A stretch of 64,000 nucleotides of DNA from Leucobacter komagatae (GTDB lineage Bacteria > Actinomycetota > Actinomycetes > Actinomycetales > Microbacteriaceae): positions 248,001 to 312,000 of the forward strand of contig NZ_VFON01000001.1 of the NCBI RefSeq assembly GCF_006716085.1, given 5' to 3'. The translations under genes and the position numbers were made by a program. Of the stretch, positions 2,254-57,649 are shown one piece after another. Positions within the stretch are counted from its first letter, which is position 1. Every line of letters begins with the position of its first letter. The notes under the pieces are model-generated. The model did not search any database. It saw only the letters and a program-made list of their open reading frames with translations, and was not told the origin of the DNA.

Positions 2254-2844
2254 ATGGAGCACATCGAGCCGCCATTCGGCGGTAGCGGCACTGGTGCGGG
2301 AGAGTACCTGGATTCCGCAGAGATGCTGTTCAGCGATGGCCTCCCTCAGCCGAACATTGACGGTGGCTTCAAGGGCGCCGTCGCGGCACGCGCCGCCGGC
2401 ATCACCTACCGCCAGCTCGACTACTGGGCCCGCACCGGGCTCGTCGAGCCGACGGTGCGCGGTGCGAGCGGCTCGGGCTCACAGCGCCTCTACGGCTTCC
2501 GAGACATCCTCGTGCTGAAGCTCGTGAAGCGCCTGCTCGACACGGGCATCTCGCTCCAGCAGATCCGTACCGCGGTGGCACAGCTCCACGAGGCCGGCGT
2601 GCACGACCTTTCACAGACGACGCTCATGAGCGACGGCGCGGGCGTGTACCTCTGCACCTCGAACGATGAGGTTATCGACCTTGTGAGCCGCGGCCAGGGC
2701 GTCTTCGGCATCGCCGTCGGCAAGGTGCTTCGGGAGGTCGAGACCTCACTCGTTGATCTCGACGACCACCGCGAGAAGGCCGCTGACGACTCGTCGATGA
2801 ACGACGAACTGGCTGCCCGTCGCGCGGCCCGCAAGACCTCTTAA
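2254..2844 (+). CDS. MerR-family regulator (Rv1830-like)
   Basis: 196 residues when started at ATG 2254, chosen because a purine-rich GAGAGAGGGAC lies just upstream and because the frame upstream of it is not protein-like. The MerR domain covers residues about 28-100 (ITYRQLDYWARTGLVEPT, QRLYGFRDILVLKLVKRLL, GISLQQIRTAVAQL). The C-terminal part (residues 110-170) has the short conserved stretch LMSDGAGVYLCTSNDEVIDL typical of this group. It is the second MerR gene of the garA-ftsR-merR cluster, but with its own promoter region of about 140 bp. Family known to influence growth and division genes in mycobacteria; a specific target here is not visible. Confidence 0.87.
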   Translation: MEHIEPPFGGSGTGAGEYLDSAEMLFSDGLPQPNIDGGFKGAVAARAAGITYRQLDYWARTGLVEPTVRGASGSGSQRLYGFRDILVLKLVKRLLDTGISLQQIRTAVAQLHEAGVHDLSQTTLMSDGAGVYLCTSNDEVIDLVSRGQGVFGIAVGKVLREVETSLVDLDDHREKAADDSSMNDELAARRAARKTS

Positions 2845-2861
2845 ATTTCTCTGGGGGAGAG

Positions 2862-2920
2862 CACCCTCGCACCCGTGGACCTGCCACCCTCACACCTGTG
2901 GCTCCGCCACCCTCGCAACC
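2862..2920. repeat. 23-bp imperfect tandem repeat, 2.6 copies
   Basis: Units start at 2862, 2885 and 2908, each beginning CACCCTC(G/A)CA and followed in the first two by CC(C/T)GTGG and a GC-rich spacer. The third copy is truncated. No gene reads through it. Confidence 0.7.
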
Positions 2921-3141
2921 CACACACTGCGTATGCGATCGGCTCTTCGTATGCCCTGTGGCCCCGAAACCTGCATTGCTAGGGTCGTTCCCATGCGGTG
3001 GAGCTGAGGAAATGGGTGGAACGGGCGCTGCCCCTGCCCACCTAGCCGCGGGGTACGGAATTGCCGTGCTCTGACCCCTGGAGTGCTCTCGGCGTTCTAT
3101 GACTGACAAGGGACTTAGCTTAGAAAACCCTCGGAAACGCC

Positions 3142-3177
3142 TCAGGGGCTACCCGGGAAAACCCGAGCAGCCCCTGA
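3142..3177. terminator. Stem-loop between merR and parA
   Basis: Outer 9-bp arms TCAGGGGCT (3142-3150) and AGCCCCTGA (3169-3177), inner CGGG/CCCG (3154-3157, 3162-3165) around an AAAA loop. No T-tract follows on either side, but its place between converging genes fits a bidirectional terminator. Confidence 0.6.
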
Positions 3178-3235
3178 CTAACGCCGTGGAGTGTGCCCCA
3201 AACAGGAACAGCACCCCAGCGCGAGGTCGTTGGCG

Positions 3236-4048
3236 TTAGGCCTGCTTCGCCTGGATGGCAGCCTGGCCTGCTGAGCGCAGCACGCGGTCGAGCACGAGGT
3301 CAAAGTTTGCGGCCATCTCCTGAGCGGGCTCACCCGGCCACAGGTGAACGGGCTTCGCCGCACCCTGCGCCTGCTGGAGCGCGGGGCGCTCGGGCAGCTG
3401 CGGGTTCAGCACGAGCGGGCCGAACATCTCGCGCAGCTCGCGGATGCGGAACTGGTGCTCCATTGACTGCGGCTGAACGCGGTTGATGAGGATGCCGAGC
3501 GGCTGCAGGCGGGGGCTCACGCCGCGGCGGATCTCCTCGATTGCGCGCAGCGCGCGGTCAGTTGCCGCGACGGCGAACAGGCTGGGCTCCGTAACAATGA
3601 GCACGCGGTCACTCGCGGCCCAGGCCGTACGGGTGAGCGCGTTCAGCGACGGCGCCGAGTCGATCAGAACGAGGTCGTAGTCGGCCTCGACGATCGCGAG
3701 CGCCTCCTCGAGCTTCCAGATGTCGCGAGCCGAAGGGTGCGGCCCATCAAAGTTGATCGCCGAGGGGCTGCCGACCAGCAGGTCGATCTTGCCGCCCTCG
3801 TGAAACTCATTCCAGCCGCTCGGGGCGATGGCCGAGCGCACGACCTTCTCCTTCGGCGACTCGAGGACATCAGCGACGTTGGCGTAGCCCTCGGGGTCGA
3901 CCGCGAGGCCTGTCGAAACGTCTGACTGCGGATCAAGGTCAACGACCAAGGTCCTCAGGCCGCGCGAGAATGCTGCCGACGCAATGCCGAGACTTACGGT
4001 CGTCTTTCCTACGCCACCTTTGAGGGAGCTGACACTCAATACATGCAC
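3236..4048 (-). CDS. ParA-family ATPase, orphan
   Basis: 270 residues beginning at GTG 4048. Deviant Walker A KGGVGKTT at residues 10-17, DLDPQSDVSTGL after the second strand, and Walker B-like LVLIDSAPS; these are the hallmarks of ParA/MinD ATPases that dimerise on ATP and bind DNA or membrane. No ParB, MinC/E or parS-like site is nearby, so it is not the chromosome-partitioning pair. The mRNA looks leaderless: the -10 hexamer TAAGCT lies 6 nt before the start. It is divergent from def and convergent with merR. Positioning cargo (a division or polar factor) is the likely job, as for other orphan actinobacterial ParA proteins, but the partner is unknown. Confidence 0.85.
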   Translation of the reverse strand: MHVLSVSSLKGGVGKTTVSLGIASAAFSRGLRTLVVDLDPQSDVSTGLAVDPEGYANVADVLESPKEKVVRSAIAPSGWNEFHEGGKIDLLVGSPSAINFDGPHPSARDIWKLEEALAIVEADYDLVLIDSAPSLNALTRTAWAASDRVLIVTEPSLFAVAATDRALRAIEEIRRGVSPRLQPLGILINRVQPQSMEHQFRIRELREMFGPLVLNPQLPERPALQQAQGAAKPVHLWPGEPAQEMAANFDLVLDRVLRSAGQAAIQAKQA

Positions 4049-4054
4049 GTTTCG

Positions 4055-4060
4055 AGCTTA
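4055..4060 (-). promoter_or_regulatory. -10 box of leaderless parA
   Basis: TAAGCT on the minus strand, 6 nt from GTG 4048. Confidence 0.55.
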
Positions 4061-4122
4061 CTGGATTCCGGTTGAAATCTGTTGGGCGTTTGCTTCGCGA
4101 TACGCGAAACCGCGGCAACCGA

Positions 4123-4128
4123 TAGCAT
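4123..4128 (+). promoter_or_regulatory. -10 box of leaderless def
   Basis: TAGCAT, 6 nt before ATG 4135; there is no Shine-Dalgarno sequence in between. Confidence 0.6.
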
Positions 4129-4134
4129 CGAATA

Positions 4135-4626
4135 ATGGCAAAACGCGAGATTCGGCTGTTCGGGGATCCGGTGCTCCGCACGGTGTGCGAGGACGTGACC
4201 GAGATTGACGCTGGTGTGCGGGCGATGGTGCTTGATCTGTGCGAAACCGTCGACGAGCCCGGCCGTGCTGGGCTCGCATCGACCCAGATCGGATACACCC
4301 TCCGAGCCTTCAGCCTGAACATCGACGGTCACATCGAATACGTCTTGAACCCCGAGCTCATCGAGGTATCGGGCGAACCCGTTCCGACGGGCGAAGGGTG
4401 CCTGTCGGTCCCAGACCTCTGGTTCCCGGTGATGCGCTATCCGTACGCCAAGGTGCGCGGCATGAACCTCGACGGCGAGGAGATCACGATCGAGGGTGAG
4501 GGCCTGAAAGCGCAGGCGCTGCAGCACGAGTGCGACCACCTCGACGGCAAGCTGTACATCTCGCGCCTCGACCGCGAGAACCGAGGCGAGGCGATGCGGC
4601 AGATTCGCACCTCGGCCTGGTTCTGA
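4135..4626 (+). CDS. def: Peptide deformylase
   Basis: 163 residues, normal for the family. Removes the formyl group from the N-terminal methionine of new proteins, acting at the ribosome exit with a bound metal ion. All three motifs are present: GRAGLASTQIG (motif I, GxGLAxxQ form), EGCLSVPD with the metal-binding Cys, and QHECDHLDG with the two metal-binding His and the catalytic Glu. The gene is divergent from parA, probably leaderless, and closed by a 21-bp hairpin shared with the convergent acyl-CoA ligase. It is not next to fmt, which lies at the other end of the window. Confidence 0.95.
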   Translation: MAKREIRLFGDPVLRTVCEDVTEIDAGVRAMVLDLCETVDEPGRAGLASTQIGYTLRAFSLNIDGHIEYVLNPELIEVSGEPVPTGEGCLSVPDLWFPVMRYPYAKVRGMNLDGEEITIEGEGLKAQALQHECDHLDGKLYISRLDRENRGEAMRQIRTSAWF

Positions 4627-4684
4627 TCCACGGGCAACGGCCGCAGATCGCGGCGCCAGCCCCAGACAGCGGTGCCAGCCCCAA

Positions 4685-4731
4685 ACAGCGAAGGAGCGCC
4701 CCGACACACGGTCGGGGCGCTCCTTCGCTGT
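4685..4731. terminator. Bidirectional hairpin terminator
   Basis: Perfect 21-bp arms 4685-4705 and 4711-4731 with a 5-nt loop, between the stop codons of def and the convergent acyl-CoA ligase. Among the strongest hairpins in the window. Confidence 0.85.
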
Positions 4732-4739
4732 ACCGGCGA

Positions 4740-6569
4740 CTAGTGCTGCGTCTGCACGGCCTCTGTCTGCGGGTTCTCGCCGTAGATGTCGGCGATCTCA
4801 GCCGCGAAGTCGCGGAGAATGTTGTCGCGCTTGATGCTCATCTTCGGGGTGAGGTGACCGTTCGCCTCGACGAAGTCGGTCGGCAGGATGACGAACTTGC
4901 GAATCGACTCCGCCCGCGAGACGTACTTGTTGCCCTCGTCGACGGCGCGCTGCACCTCAGCGAGCACCTTCGGGTGGCGCGCGGCCTCCTCGACGGTCAT
5001 GTCGGGGTTCTCACCCTGGTTCTTGAGCCAGGCCGGGAGCATCTCCATGTCCAGGGTGATCAGCGCCGCGATGAAGGGCTTCTGCTCGCCGACGGCAACG
5101 ACCTGGCTGATGATCGTGTTCGCGCGGATCGGATCCTCAAGTGCGGCGGGGGCGACGTTCTTGCCGCCCGCGGTCACGATGATCTCCTTCTTGCGGCCGG
5201 TGATCGACAGGTAGCCGTCGCTGTCGAGCGACCCCAGGTCGCCGGTCTTGAAGAAGCCGTCCTCGGTGAAGACCGCCTTCGTCGCCTCGGGGTTGTTCCA
5301 GTACTCCTTGAAGACGTCGATGCCCTTGACCTCGATCTCGCCGTCTTCTGCGATGCGCACGGTGTGGCCGGGGAGCGCTGGGCCGACGGTGCCAATCTTG
5401 AACTTGTCGGGCAGGTTCACCGTGACGGGCGCCGTTGTCTCGGTCAGGCCGTAGCCCTCAAGGATCTTGATGCCGAGGCTGCGGTAGAAGTGGCCGAGGT
5501 ACTGGCTCAGCGGTGCGGAGCCGGAGACGGCGTACTGGACGCGGCCGCCGAGCTTCGAGCGGAGCTTCGAGTAGACGAGCTTGTCGAATACACGGAACTT
5601 GAGGCCGAGCATGAACGGCACCTTGCCGGCGTCGAGCGCCTCAGAGTGCTCGACCGCGACCTTTGCCGCGGCGCGGAAGATCTTGCCCTTGCCCTCCGCC
5701 TCGGTCGACTGCTCGGCGGAGTTGTAGACCTTCTCGAAGACGCGGGGGACTGCGAGCAGGAACGTTGGGTGGAACGAGCCGAGCGAGGGGAGCAGCTGGG
5801 TCGTGTCAGCCTGGTGCCCGACGCGCACGCCGCCGTGCACGCAGAGCACTGAGATGAAGCGTGCGAAGACGTGGGCCAGCGTGACGAAGAGCAGCGTGGC
5901 CGCGCCGGGCTGCTGGACGAGCTCCGAGAGCGCGCTACCCGCGTTCCGCGAGAGATCGACGAAGTTCGAGTGGGTGAGCACGCAGCCCTTGGGGCGGCCG
6001 GTCGACCCCGACGTGTAGATGAGGGTTGCGATGTCGTCGCCGCTCGCGAGGTTGCGGCGGCGCTCGATCTCGGCGTCATCGACGTCGGCCCCCTGGATTC
6101 CGAGGGCCGCAACCGCGCCCTCGTCGAGGCGCCAGACCAGGTCAACCTTGCCGAGCTGATCCTGCACCTCAGCGAAACGGCTGAACTGATCGGCGGTCTC
6201 GATCATGAAGCCGCGGGCGCCAGAATCCTCAAGGATCCAGTGGATCTGCAGCGCGGAAGACGTCTCGTAAACGGGAACCATGATGGCCCCGGCGTAGTGC
6301 AGCGCGAAGTCGACGAGCGTCCACTCGTAGCTCGTCTTGCACATGAACGCGATGTGGTCGCCGGGTTCGACGCCCGCGGCGACGAACCCCTTAGCGAGAG
6401 TGATGACCTGGGCGCGGAACTCGGTTGCCGTGATGTCACTCCAGCCATCGCCTGTCGGTGTGGCAAAGAGCGGGCGATCGGGGGTGGCAGCAACCCGCTG
6501 TTCGAGAAGGTCTGTAATGTTATCCTCGGGAACCGGGGGAACGAGCAGTGGTGTTTCTGACAGCTTCAC
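4740..6569 (-). CDS. Long-chain fatty-acid--CoA ligase (FadD15-like)
   Basis: 609 residues from GTG 6569, chosen because AAGGAG lies 5 nt upstream. Adenylates fatty acids with ATP and transfers them to CoA. ANL-superfamily motifs: phosphate-binding YTSGSTGRPKGC, adenine-site YGLTETTAPV, the hinge region FFKTGDLG and ITGRKKEIIVTAGGKNV. The layout resembles bacterial long-chain ligases of 600-620 residues. It is divergent from plsC, which would use the acyl chains for phosphatidic acid. In M. tuberculosis fadD15 lies in the same broad neighbourhood as plsC, aroG and pknL, which supports orthology. Chain-length preference cannot be judged. Confidence 0.9.
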   Translation of the reverse strand: MKLSETPLLVPPVPEDNITDLLEQRVAATPDRPLFATPTGDGWSDITATEFRAQVITLAKGFVAAGVEPGDHIAFMCKTSYEWTLVDFALHYAGAIMVPVYETSSALQIHWILEDSGARGFMIETADQFSRFAEVQDQLGKVDLVWRLDEGAVAALGIQGADVDDAEIERRRNLASGDDIATLIYTSGSTGRPKGCVLTHSNFVDLSRNAGSALSELVQQPGAATLLFVTLAHVFARFISVLCVHGGVRVGHQADTTQLLPSLGSFHPTFLLAVPRVFEKVYNSAEQSTEAEGKGKIFRAAAKVAVEHSEALDAGKVPFMLGLKFRVFDKLVYSKLRSKLGGRVQYAVSGSAPLSQYLGHFYRSLGIKILEGYGLTETTAPVTVNLPDKFKIGTVGPALPGHTVRIAEDGEIEVKGIDVFKEYWNNPEATKAVFTEDGFFKTGDLGSLDSDGYLSITGRKKEIIVTAGGKNVAPAALEDPIRANTIISQVVAVGEQKPFIAALITLDMEMLPAWLKNQGENPDMTVEEAARHPKVLAEVQRAVDEGNKYVSRAESIRKFVILPTDFVEANGHLTPKMSIKRDNILRDFAAEIADIYGENPQTEAVQTQH

Positions 6570-6707
6570 GGCAACTCCTTTGTACCTCGTGTCGGACGCT
6601 GTGCGCGGCAGTCCGGCCGCGAACAAGTATGCTCTCACCCTATCTCTATGCGTCTGATGATGCGCGGCTCCGCTATTCTGGTGGTCTACGAAGGGAACCA
6701 GCTCACT

Positions 6708-7388
6708 TTGCTCTACTGGATCTTTAAACACCTGATCGTCGGGCCGTTTTTGAAAGCGGTGTACCGGCCGTGGGTGGAGGGAGCCGAGAACATTCCGGCG
6801 ACTGGCCCCGTAATTCTTGTCGGGAATCACCTATCTGTTATTGATTCGTTCTTTCTCCCGATCATGATCGAGCGCCGCGTGTACTTCCTCGCGAAGAGCG
6901 AGTACTTCTCGGGTAAGGGCCTGAAGGGCTGGCTCGTGAAGACATTCATGCTCGGCGTCGGCCAGCTTCCGATCGACCGCTCCGGCGGCAAGGCCTCGGA
7001 GGCGTCGTTGAATACGGCCCTCAATGTGTTGGATCGCGGGGACGTGCTCGGCATTTACCCCGAGGGCACCCGCAGCCCTGACGCCCGCCTCTACCGCGGC
7101 CGTACCGGCGTCGCGCGGATGGTGCTGGAGTCGGGTGTGCCTGTCGTGCCCGTCGTGATGATTGACACGGAGAAGGCGATGCCGATCGGGGCGAAGTTCC
7201 CGAAGATCCGGCGTATCGGCACGGTCATTGGCCAGCCGCTTGATTTCAGCCGGTTCGAGGGCATGAGCGCCGATCGCTTCGTGCTGCGCAGCGTCACCGA
7301 CGAGATCACGCTCGCGATCCAGGAGCTCAGCGGCCAGGAGTACGTCGACGTCTACGCTTCGAGCGTTCGCGAGCGCACCGGAAAGTAG
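6708..7388 (+). CDS. plsC: 1-acyl-sn-glycerol-3-phosphate acyltransferase
   Basis: 226 residues from TTG 6708, preferred because AAGGGAA lies 10 nt upstream and a TATTCT -10 candidate (6674-6679) would make the upstream ATG 6648 untranslated; with that ATG the protein would be 246 residues. Acylates lysophosphatidic acid to phosphatidic acid at the inner membrane face. The HX4D motif is NHLSVID, the glycerol-phosphate-binding motif is YPEGTRS, and VPVVPVVM follows. The N-terminal hydrophobic helix (YWIFKHLIVGPFLKAVY) would anchor it. Lies divergent from the acyl-CoA ligase and upstream of aroG, the same neighbourhood as Rv2182c in mycobacteria. Confidence 0.88.
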   Translation: MLYWIFKHLIVGPFLKAVYRPWVEGAENIPATGPVILVGNHLSVIDSFFLPIMIERRVYFLAKSEYFSGKGLKGWLVKTFMLGVGQLPIDRSGGKASEASLNTALNVLDRGDVLGIYPEGTRSPDARLYRGRTGVARMVLESGVPVVPVVMIDTEKAMPIGAKFPKIRRIGTVIGQPLDFSRFEGMSADRFVLRSVTDEITLAIQELSGQEYVDVYASSVRERTGK

Positions 7389-7450
7389 TGCGCGTGGCAC
7401 GTTCGCTAGGGGCTGTGGTGAGGAATGCCACGGCGAGGGCGAGCGTTGGG

Positions 7451-54637: not shown

Positions 54638-55852
54638 CTATGCCTGCTGTGCGAGGCGCTCCGCGACGAAGTCCACGTCTTTGTCGCCGCGGCCCGAGAG
54701 ATTCACGATGATGACGGCATCGGCCGGGAGTGTCGGAGCGAGCTTCACTGCGTGTGCGACCGCGTGCGACGATTCGAGTGCCGGGATGATGCCCTCGGTG
54801 CGGGTGAGCAGCTGGAACGCGTCGAGCGTCTCGGCGTCGGTCGCGGTCACGTACTCGGCGCGTCCGAGCTGTTCGAGGCGGGCGTGCTGCGGGCCGACTC
54901 CGGGGTAATCGATGCCCGAGGCGATCGAGTGCACGGCTGACGGCTCACCGTTCGCGTCCTGCAGCACCTTCGTGTGCATGCCGTGCAGCATCCCGGGGGT
55001 GCCGAGCGTCATCGTCGCAGCGTGACGAGTGCCCTCAAGGCCCTCGCCGGCTGGCTCAACCCCGATGATTCCGACGCCCTCGTCTTCGAGGAACGCGTCG
55101 AACAGGCCCATCGCGTTCGAACCGCCTCCGACCGCGGCGATGAGGTAGTCGGGAAGCCTGCCCTCTGCCTCGAGCACCTGCGCACGCGCCTCGCGGCCGA
55201 CGACCGACTGGAAGTCGCGCACCATCGACGGGTACGGGTGCGGACCAACGACCGAACCGATCGCGAAGAAGTACTCTTCGGGGTTCGCAGCGTAGACACC
55301 GAACGCAGAGTCGACGGCTTCCTTCAGCGTCTTGCCGCCCTCCTCGACGGAGACGACCTTCGCGCCGAGCAACTCCATGCGCACGACGTTCGGGTGCTGC
55401 TTGGCGACATCGATGGCGCCCATATGGATCTCGCACTCGAGCCCGACGAGCGCTGCCGCGGTCGCGAGTGCGACGCCGTGCTGGCCGGCGCCGGTCTCAG
55501 CGATGACCTTCGTCTTGCCCATTCGCTTCGCGAGCAGTGCTTCGCCGAGACAGTGGTTAATCTTGTGCGCACCGGTGTGGTTGAGGTCTTCGCGCTTGAG
55601 GTAGACCTTCGCGCCACCGAGCTTTGCGGTGAGGTTCTCAGCAAAGTACAGCAGCGACGGGCGGCCGACGTACTTCGAGAGCAGCGCCTGGTACTCCTCC
55701 TGGAACGCGGGGTCGGCACTCGCCTTGGCGTACTCGCGGGCGACCTCGGCGATGGGCTCGACAAGGAACGGCGGCAGCGGCGCGCCGCCGAACTCGCCGA
55801 AGAAGCCGTGCTCGTCGGCCCGGTAGGGCGAGGCAGTGGTGGTCTGAGTCAT
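54638..55852 (-). CDS. trpB: Tryptophan synthase beta chain, solitary copy
   Basis: 404 residues from ATG 55852 with AAGGA upstream. PLP enzyme converting indole and serine to tryptophan. PLP lysine in [19 protein letters not shown], the phosphate loop GGGSNAMG and EPAGEG. The N-terminal motif is [14 protein letters not shown] where TrpA-bound enzymes usually read FGxFGGxYVPETL, and no trpA, trpC or other trp gene is near. It is preceded by a complete attenuator with leader peptide. Likely a stand-alone beta subunit that salvages indole; a normal partner elsewhere in the genome cannot be excluded. Converges on the helicase gene. Confidence 0.9.
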
Positions 55853-55918
55853 GAGTGGAGATCCTTCGTGGTCACTGAGCGGGTGGGGTGTGTTGGCCCC
55901 GTGCGCCACTCGTGAGAC

Positions 55919-55946
55919 AAAAAACACCGCCTCCGAGAGGCGGTGT
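55919..55946 (-). terminator. Attenuator terminator of trpB leader
   Basis: On the minus strand a 10-bp stem ACACCGCCTC/GAGGCGGTGT with a 3-nt loop (55946-55924) runs into six T (55924-55919). It sits 66 bp before trpB. Its first arm can instead pair with 55981-55975. Confidence 0.92.
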
Positions 55947-55990
55947 CGAGGTGCATGCAGATGCGTGAAGAGTGACCGCCCTAGGCGGCC
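55924..55990 (-). promoter_or_regulatory. trp transcription attenuator
   Basis: Three mutually exclusive minus-strand pairings: segment 1 (55990-55984) with segment 2 (55980-55974), 7 bp; segment 2 (55981-55975) with segment 3 (55944-55938), the antiterminator; segment 3 (55946-55937) with segment 4 (55933-55924), the terminator. Tandem Trp codons lie at 55995-55990, directly before and overlapping segment 1. A ribosome stalled there would free segment 2 for the antiterminator, so trpB should be read through when Trp-tRNA is scarce. Confidence 0.85.
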
Positions 55991-56013
55991 CACCACTGAA
56001 TCACGATGTGCAT
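55981..56013 (-). CDS. trpL: trp leader peptide TrpL
   Basis: Ten-codon frame reading [10 protein letters not shown] then stop, with adjacent Trp codons at positions 7 and 8. The start ATG follows a -10 box TACACT by 6 nt, so the leader is probably made from a leaderless mRNA. Position, size and the downstream alternative hairpins match known trp leader peptides of other actinobacteria in design. It ends about 130 bp before trpB. Confidence 0.88.
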
Positions 56014-56019
56014 GCGCCG

Positions 56020-56049
56020 AGTGTATCACCAGCACTACGTATGTGTCAC
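56020..56049 (-). promoter_or_regulatory. Promoter of trpL-trpB
   Basis: -35 GTGACA (56049-56044), 18-bp spacer, -10 TACACT (56025-56020), then 6 nt to ATG 56013. Confidence 0.75.
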
Positions 56050-56071: not shown

Positions 56072-57649
56072 ATGACGCTGCAGCACGCGACGGTCTCGCC
56101 CGCCCCTCGCGGATTTGGCGTGCTGACCGAGGCGAGCGCCGACGGGCTGGTGCTCGGCCTCGCCCCTGCACTCACTGTGAGTGGCATCGACCAATCGCCG
56201 AGCTTCTTCTCGGGGTTTGCGACTGAACCGCTCGTGCTCGCACGCGGTCTGCTCGTGCTCGCGGACATCACCGCGACCCGCTACTTCCAGTACGTGCCGA
56301 CGACGATGCGCGATCCGGTTCTGGCAGCGAACGGCGATAGGCTGCGCGCGGAGAGCTTCTCCGCCTGCAACAGCGTGTACGCGCGGCTCGACCTGCTCGG
56401 CGCGGGCTTCGACGGTGGTGACATCGCGCACGGAACAACCAACGTTGACCTCGGGCAGCGGTCGCGCTCGGTGCTCTCAGCGGTGCGCCGTGCGGAGCTC
56501 CTCCACCTCGACGTCGGCGCCCGCGGCGCGGTGCTCGCCACGCCGACGGGGCACTCAACCGAGCGCCCCGTGAACATGCCGGGCCGGTGGGTGCGGGCAT
56601 TCGGGAACGTCGCCGAGCTGCACGGCCGGATGGTGCCGCTTGCGACGCTCACCGCACCGGAGGCGCGCGCGTTCCTTTCCGCAGTCCCGCCGGCGACCGC
56701 CAGCGGCCGAACCGCCTGGCTCGCTCCCGCGGCATCGGGCGTGCGGGTCGTGTCGCGGCCAGTGGCCGGGGCCATCGCGGTTCCCGGGCTGCACCGCCTG
56801 AGCGCGGCGAAACGCCTCCTCCCGCACCTTCGTGGCGCGACGGTGTATGGCGCGCCGCACGCGGAGACGGGCGCTGTCGCCGTCGTGTTCGAACTCCCGC
56901 ACGCGCGGCTCACACTCGGGCTGACCGCCGAAGCCTGGCGGGGGCACTCGGGAGAGGGCGCGCTCCTCGCCGCACTGGCGGGCGACGAGGTCGTCGCAGA
57001 CGCCGAAACCCTCTCAGTGCTGCTCGCTTTCGAGCCGGTCATCGACGCCGGCAAGCTTGCCAAGGAAGCGGGGATCACGAGGGTCCGGGCCGACGGCGCG
57101 ATCGCGGTGCTTGCAGCCTCTGGCCGAGTGGGCTGGGACCTCGCCGATGGCGCGCACTTTCACCGCGAGCTTCCCGATGACCCGACGAGGATCGAGCGCG
57201 ACGGCCCGCGCCTCGCCGCCGCTCGGGCGCTCGTCGCCGCGGGGCGGGTTGCGCCGGGCCCAGGCCAGGGGAACTCAGAGGAGTCGCGCAACTGGATCGT
57301 GAGGGGCGGCGAAACCGGCGGCACTGCCAGCACTGCCAGCACAGCCAATTCAGCCGGCACAGCCGGCACAACCGGTGACAGTATCGTGCGCCTCGGCGAC
57401 GACGGGCAGCTCGTGTGCGGCTGCGCATGGGGTCTCCGTCACGGCGCTGGGCGGGGCCCCTGCAAACACGTGCTCGCCGTCGAGATCGCCCGGGCCCGCG
57501 CGTCCCAGCGTACCCAGGGGAGTGCTCCGGCGAGGGCACCGAAACCAGCAACACAACCACCTGCACAACCACCAGCAGAATCACCAACACAACCACCAAC
57601 CCCAACCCCAACCCCAACCCCAACCCCGACCCCGAAGGAGCAGGCGTGA
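56072..57649 (+). CDS. SWIM zinc-finger protein
   Basis: 525 residues. C-terminal SWIM motif [18 protein letters not shown] (C-x-C ... C-x-H) at about residues 449-466, which in the family binds DNA or protein through one zinc. Residues 1-390 form a large mixed domain of unknown fold; residues about 410-435 are a Gly/Ser/Thr linker. The tail after 490 is Pro-rich and ends in repeated Pro-Thr pairs encoded by a hexanucleotide tandem repeat. Directly coupled (GTGA overlap) to the next giant gene, as SWIM proteins often are with their partner in conflict-type systems. No MoxR or VWA gene is adjacent, so this is a reduced or different version. Confidence 0.8.
57598..57627 (+). repeat. (AACCCC)5 hexanucleotide repeat
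   Basis: Five perfect tandem AACCCC units in frame encode Pro-Thr repeats at the end of the SWIM protein. Slippage by units would change the tail by two residues without frameshift. Confidence 0.9.

Follow-up and report, generated by a model that had tools for sequence, protein, structure and literature searches.

Within the 64,000-nt stretch of Leucobacter komagatae DNA that was analysed (the window), the minus strand carries a promoter, a ten-codon leader with two tandem Trp codons, alternative hairpins and a T-tailed terminator in front of a solitary second copy of trpB. The explanation as a whole, that expression of this solitary second TrpB is controlled by classical trp attenuation through a ribosome on a leaderless leader peptide, is considered likely, with a probability of about 0.8. 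The RNA device is ordinary in its logic and the target is unusual. A complete trp attenuator before trpB had been proposed in a sequence-only reading; related genomes support the proposal, which had overlooked three points: the gene is an additional trpB copy of apparently stand-alone nature, the main his-trp cluster showed no element of this kind, and the same arrangement is met again in other Actinobacteria and in Patescibacteria.

Promoter, leader peptide and hairpins

The promoter GTGACA-18-TACACT of the sequence-only reading is present on the minus strand, with GTGACA at 56049-56044 and TACACT at 56025-56020 separated by an 18-nt spacer. A promoter scan of the 3.7 kb between 54000 and 57700 returned one site, upstream of the leader, with 0.1 expected from shuffles. 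The two hexamers did not fare equally in relatives. The TANNNT box is kept, and 30 of 34 distinct Leucobacter leaders (a set from which genome G006 was left out) have TGn ahead of it, whereas no column upstream of -15 rises above 0.6 bit in the same leaders. Because the -35-like hexamer is unconserved, and probably of minor weight, the promoter is better called an extended -10 (TGA-TACACT, 56028-56020).

The ten-codon leader (56013-55981, minus strand) lies 6 nt after the -10 box, as had been proposed, and its codons 7 and 8 are tandem Trp codons (55995-55990), the putative sensor, judged from sequence and conservation; TGGTGG is unchanged in all 26 aligned actinobacterial leaders. A short frame with tandem Trp codons near its end is what is expected of an attenuator leader. 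Each of the 34 distinct Leucobacter leaders has its TANNNT box ending 6 nt (29 leaders) or 7 nt (five leaders) upstream of the ATG. By eye, the box stands 7 nt before the ATG in 6/6 other actinobacterial leaders and 6 nt before it in 6/8 Patescibacteria-type leaders, L068 and L071 deviating. Transcription from a sigma-70 promoter starts ~7 nt past the -10 box. With the 6-7-nt spacing, this places the predicted 5' end at the A of the leader ATG (56013). Since all 34 leaders begin 6-7 nt past the box, the earlier suggestion of a leaderless leader, read from the -10-to-ATG spacing, is well supported, and it agrees with the absence of a Shine-Dalgarno-like word ahead of the leader in 33/34 (present in 1/34). 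The near-constant spacing in the three groups of leaders, the missing Shine-Dalgarno-like words and the onset of conservation at -15 make it highly improbable that transcription starts further upstream and that the conserved box by the ATG is something else. Such a start would accommodate the weaker boxes or missing TGn of L013, L022, L023, L194 and L247, as well as L068 and L071, which have no box at 6 nt, the former with GGTAGG before its leader (by eye).

A divergent gene on the plus strand (56072-57649), which has no Pfam match, starts 59 nt from the leader ATG. By eye, a different gene, perhaps fmt, seems to begin at this position in several relatives.

Segments 1 and 2 form the hairpin GGCCGCC-TAG-GGCGGTC around the leader stop codon (55990-55974, minus strand), which was identified from energy and covariation. 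The putative antiterminator pairs segment 2 (GGCGGT, 55980-55975) with segment 3 (ACCGCC, 55944-55939) on the same strand, as judged from duplex energy and pairing. Segments 3 and 4 form an intrinsic terminator (stem 55947-55923, T6 at 55924-55919, minus strand; scan, energy and covariation), which matches the T6 terminator claimed from the letters and has the most pairs (11) among the three candidates. Further features of an attenuator present here are a terminator between leader and trpB and a 1:2 hairpin that takes in the last part of the leader frame. The three hairpins had been described as mutually exclusive; this holds for 2:3, which excludes both 1:2 and 3:4, whereas 1:2 and 3:4 coexist. 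The 164-nt leader RNA folds with -67.4 kcal/mol (z -3.3), a value matched by 1/200 shuffles.

Covariation was assessed in 26 actinobacterial leaders out of 33 distinct ones, seven being left out. Helices 1:2 and 3:4 together have 96.9% of cells paired, and 8/16 pairs are changed on both sides. Of five covariation measures, four are higher than in any of the 500 shuffles and the remaining one, further pair types, is attained in 6/500; every version with slid partners scores lower. Helix 1:2 alone, with 6 pairs, has 97.4% of cells paired and both-side changes in 3/6. The 2:3 helix has 94.2% of cells paired, but its segments are almost invariant in the 26 leaders and its covariation does not rise above shuffles (216/500 as high); sliding the partners by +3 gives a score of 0.117 against 0.065 unslid, at 89.4% paired. 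For the 33 leaders, median energies come to -14.5 kcal/mol for 1:2, -19.5 for 3:4 and -12.9 for 2:3. The 2:3 duplex can form in 33/33 and reaches -9.0 kcal/mol or lower in 32/33, with L012 at -7.6; shuffled segments average -7.8 kcal/mol, 70% of them reaching -6 and 6% the observed median. As covariation stays within shuffles and shuffled segments pair readily, the antiterminator rests on sequence conservation and energy. The leaders come from relatives, so these counts are not independent events.

In E. coli attenuation a stalled ribosome decides between antiterminator and terminator, and the mechanism proposed here draws on this precedent and on the spacing of the elements. RNA polymerase would start at the A of the leader ATG, as the spacing suggests, and a ribosome would load at the 5' AUG without a Shine-Dalgarno sequence. 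When Trp-tRNA is plentiful, the ribosome would reach the stop codon and cover segment 2, and 3:4 would end transcription near 55919. When Trp-tRNA is scarce, the ribosome would stall at codons 7-8 and cover segment 1, and 2:3 would pair, with read-through into trpB. When there is no translation, 1:2 and 3:4 would both form and transcription would end. If this mechanism holds, the leaders described here offer, in two phyla, naturally leaderless attenuators for studying the pacing of a 5'-AUG ribosome with RNA polymerase.

Distribution of the element and of the solo trpB

A covariance model of the element had one match in the L. komagatae genome (E 5.6e-16). The 14-kb his-trp locus (L031) has no short frame with tandem Trp codons, its part from 2301 to 5700, which was scanned for T runs, has none, and no Trp leader was seen before the TrpS-like reading frame of L258. 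An attenuator of this kind sits at the solo trpB, and none was found at the main his-trp cluster.

The sequence-only reading had called for a search of related genomes for the same short frame before trpB. Across 54 Leucobacter genomes the covariance model gave one match each in 35 and none in 19, under strict filters and with several of the 19 being incomplete assemblies. The solo trpB occurs in exactly the 35 element-bearing genomes (35/35 vs 0/19). The first 37 genomes (own included) comprise 25 with a solo trpB at 82-100% identity, plus G035 with the gene in pieces; the remaining 17 comprise nine with it (81-87% identity) and eight without, in full agreement with the element. The WW leader directly precedes the solo trpB in 24 of the 25. 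The closest named loci by solo TrpB are Leucobacter, at up to 93% identity.

Two genomes carry damaged units. In G006 an IS481-like element (L037, about 6327-7392) has inserted between the stop codon of the leader and segment 2, flanked by leader and terminator, a natural disruption of the switch in one species. In G035 (L032, G035:C11:68500-72500) the leader is intact and the solo trpB is in two overlapping pieces. Given these two cases, the leader-trpB unit may be dispensable in some species. They would also suit a relic, that is, a leader and terminator left from a lost trp operon with the Trp response gone, as would the position of trpB as the first gene behind an attenuator in Corynebacterium diphtheriae (PMC1262725 and PMC5784534, in their available parts). 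A relic is nonetheless highly improbable: helices 1:2 and 3:4 carry compensatory changes, the TGG codons are invariant, element and gene are jointly present or absent in 54/54 genomes, and no neighbour gene speaks for a lost Corynebacterium-like operon.

A run GCAAYGAMGCAAAGGA that ends in the trpB Shine-Dalgarno word was seen between terminator and trpB in 13/29 Leucobacter leader stretches (e.g. L004, L007, L012, L018, L024, L043 and L047); it is absent from the window.

The description of the downstream gene as single and solitary also stood, as no trp neighbour gene was found at the locus. Wider sampling used the best 80 of 562 TrpB relatives. A tblastn search with the Leucobacter proteins (E 1e-4) found trpA, trpE and trpC in 0/80 of these loci, in flanks of up to 3 kb that are shorter at contig ends and at a sensitivity that could miss distant homologues; a control locus gave all three genes. 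Among the same best 80 of 562 relatives, WW leaders occur in 13/13 Leucobacter-type loci (L040-L052), in 14/22 other actinobacterial or Patescibacteria-type loci and in 0/45 other loci, mostly Proteobacteria (Fisher 3e-9 for 14/22 vs 0/45, relatedness ignored). Two more leaders emerged on inspection, that of L129 with WW and that of L095 with a lone Trp codon; both loci have a terminator. Eight leader loci are of Patescibacteria type, five by title (L059, L064, L068, L071 and L072) and three by tree position (L065, L073 and L098).

A quick tree was built from 93 of 131 extracted TrpBs, leaving out 12 duplicates and 26 proteobacterial rows. The solo TrpBs group in a single clade (59 rows, SH-aLRT 96) that takes in L026, L129, L130 and L188 as well, these four placed by the tree alone. 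Within it, a subclade of Actinobacteria and Patescibacteria-type sequences has 39 rows (SH-aLRT 94), with leaders in 30 (28 from scoring and two from inspection) and none in nine; one of the nine, L055, has 153 bp of upstream sequence. The ends of the leader peptides differ between the phyla, QWWTA versus AWWTAHISG and others. Outside Leucobacter the solo TrpB type is rare: at E 1e-145 it was found in the own genome and one other among 394 genomes of the class, and 286 genomes of the Patescibacteria phylum gave three matches at at least 69% identity, the query's own genome included. The covariance model matched 20/396 genomes of the actinobacterial phylum, own included.

The solo TrpB and its probable role

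The solo trpB (55852-54638, minus strand, ATG at 55852) follows a Shine-Dalgarno word AAGGA (55866-55862), identified from the sequence, and encodes 404 residues with no Trp. It is the second TrpB of the genome, with 55% identity to the copy at G000:C1:327039-328214 that adjoins trpA in the main cluster, whose order by reading of the frames is hisG, hisF, trpE, trpC, trpB, trpA. The protein is of TrpB1 type, scoring 566.5 bits with the trpB equivalog profile TIGR00263 (cut-off 392.45) and 160.9 bits with the TrpB2 profile TIGR01415, under its cut-off of 518.85. The catalytic Lys, Glu and Ser are kept in 58/58 sampled solo TrpBs.

Two positions separate the sampled solo TrpBs from operon copies without exception: position 187 is Ser in 58/58 and Thr in 22/22 operon TrpBs, and position 171 is Asp in 58/58 and Asn in 22/22. 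The available part of PMC11917138 names E36, E42, T53, S187, A279 and M280 as residues of stand-alone TrpBs; on a numbering that presumably carries an offset of 2 from the PDB chain, S187 is the one residue of the six common to all 58. At positions 279 and 280, where that set has Ala and Met, the solo TrpBs vary and carry Met (or Phe). A special likeness to the ancestral LBCA TrpB was considered and dropped, since LBCA is the best solved relative of the solo TrpB but ranks fourth for the operon copy too.

No Trp residue occurs in the 34 Leucobacter solo TrpBs (the broken G035 copy not counted) or in 30/30 sampled leader-bearing members of the clade; operon TrpBs have one to six in 22/22. The nine subclade members without a leader include six that lack Trp, and 45 proteobacterial and other members divide into 20 without Trp and 25 with one. 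Depletion of the product amino acid in its own biosynthetic enzymes is a known idea. A 400-residue protein would lack Trp with a chance of 0.09 at the operon rate, so the absence is informative only through its persistence across the whole set, and common descent accounts for part of it. With no Trp residue, this TrpB could be made at Trp exhaustion; the leader-bearing members would then make up a family of tryptophan synthases that lack tryptophan and serve only in starvation.

The best reading of the function, from the gene content and residues described, is tryptophan-starvation-induced use of indole. The TrpB would act without TrpA and join serine with indole, leaked or taken up, to give tryptophan. 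The eight Patescibacteria-type genomes (0.5-1.2 Mb, mostly metagenome assemblies and possibly incomplete) had no match to TrpA, TrpC or chorismate-binding (TrpE-type) domains (0 in 8/8), in searches whose controls were positive in 14/14 known genomes each time. In two actinobacterial genomes, G073 and the metagenome assembly G070, a single TrpB was seen and TrpA gave no match, although TrpC and a chorismate-binding protein matched in both. The case for indole use is less clear for Leucobacter, which encodes a TrpA, than for Patescibacteria. If the reading is right, regulated use of indole is predicted in Leucobacter and also in Patescibacteria, where the search for other pathway genes came back empty. 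A broader proposal, put forward tentatively and at odds short of even, is that the leaderless WW switch and the Trp-free, TrpA-independent TrpB form a distinct emergency module, turning external indole into tryptophan, that has spread in Actinobacteria and Patescibacteria, and that in Patescibacteria it would be the only Trp-making gene of very small, probably host-dependent cells using their neighbours' indole under the control of classical attenuation.

The attenuator could instead be real and the solo TrpB an extra beta subunit pairing with the TrpA of the cell at Trp shortage. Lys167, which we take to be an alpha-contact residue and, with Arg141, part of the alpha-beta signalling set, is kept in 57/58 sampled solo TrpBs, and this leaves room for binding of the solo TrpB to TrpA. 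Among the sampled actinobacterial solo TrpBs the two residues are kept in 27/28 and 28/28, respectively, and the main cluster of G000 includes trpA. We regard this alternative as rather unlikely, because no TrpA match was obtained in 8/8 Patescibacteria-type and 2/7 actinobacterial gene-bearing genomes (some of them metagenome assemblies), Asn171 of the operon copies is replaced by Asp throughout the sampled solo TrpBs, and trpA was not found beside the solo trpB in any of the best 80 of 562 loci. It is improbable, too, that the product is a substituted Trp or another beta-substituted amino acid, with attenuation serving merely as a starvation signal. The function is predicted from sequence, and 55% identity to the operon TrpB would allow for a changed product; the TIGR00263 score well over its cut-off, the intact catalytic residues and the failure to find the other trp domains tested in Patescibacteria-type genomes favour tryptophan itself.

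Relation to known attenuators and solitary trpB genes

The E. coli trp attenuator has tandem Trp codons and a 1:2, 2:3, 3:4 logic, and the window element shares both. It differs from the E. coli system in its leader, which has no Shine-Dalgarno word, and in its single target gene. The E. coli element is presumably the Rfam family Trp_leader. Neither this nor any other Rfam family reached its gathering score within the window, and Trp_leader was not matched in L001 at E 0.5. A search of eight loci at E 0.5 gave only rRNA, tRNA, a single SAM riboswitch and a single weak match of plastid type. Mycobacterial leaderless short frames with cysteine codons reportedly act as attenuators (Canestrari 2020). 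Candidate leaderless short cysteine-codon frames of mycobacteria appear in the available part of PMC4633059.

The closest precedent is from Streptomyces lividans, where a leaderless TrpL1 precedes monocistronic trpE and TrpL2 precedes trpS (PMC8079986, available part). As in the window, these have a leaderless short leader, Trp codons, hairpins and one downstream gene. The target in the window, however, is a second trpB rather than trpE or trpS, and the two Trp codons and T6 run of the window element differ from TrpL2, which is described in the same part of the source as having a single Trp codon and lacking a U-rich tail. The TrpL2 peptide MMTRTCTQLWRAA (PMC8079986, available part) resembles leaders such as MTTRTCTQLWWAA that the covariance model found before TrpS-like reading frames. 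Eight of the 20 genomes matched by the model in the phylum belong to one large-genome genus and carry a WWAA-type attenuator (L219-L226), with TrpS as the next reading frame in six (by eye). A leaderless attenuator before a single gene had been presented as odd; with the S. lividans trpE and trpS cases in print (PMC8079986, as far as available) and the TrpS-type elements in six genomes, it is less so than was stated.

Classical trp attenuators were predicted in Corynebacterium and Streptomyces by Seliverstov et al. 2005 (PMC1262725, available part), including two in C. diphtheriae, before trpB1EDGC and trpB2A. These share with the window a double or triple UGG leader, an antiterminator and a GC-rich, U-tailed terminator, but precede operons (and trpS2) in the part available, whereas the window has one trpB; the genome list in that part includes no Leucobacter and no Patescibacteria (PMC1262725). 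The leader of the C. diphtheriae trpB1 operon is given as MTNMNAHNWWWRA, without a mapped start, in the available part of PMC5784534.

A second trpB outside the operon has parallels in the non-operon class i1_o1, with N. pharaonis as the one archaeon (Merkl et al. 2007, PMC1854888, available part), and in the TrpB1 and TrpB2 paralogues of Thermococcus kodakarensis, which are involved in salvaging indole (as cited in the available part of PMC11085991). The window protein is of TrpB1 type, unlike the T. kodakarensis TrpB2 (PMC11085991), and the available part of PMC1854888 mentions no attenuator. Chlamydia trachomatis salvages indole through trpRBA, and TrpL attenuation is said to be absent there (PMC7755916, available part). 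An attenuator before a stand-alone trpB was not found in a literature search that reached few subscription journals. As far as the searches show, what is new is an attenuator joined, in two phyla, to a TrpB that is both stand-alone and free of Trp; the RNA device itself is classical.

Two further loci were noted. L231 (G1021), from another lineage of the actinobacterial phylum, has a WW leader MILNPVTIKKLQRKAGWWSP and a terminator-like hairpin before a TrpB2-type gene (TIGR01415, 677 bits), and Trp attenuation of TrpB2 is possible there, judging by these elements. In Pseudomonas abyssi (L088) a LysR-type gene (by eye) adjoins the solo trpB on the opposite strand; proteobacterial solo trpB genes are perhaps under a different regulator.
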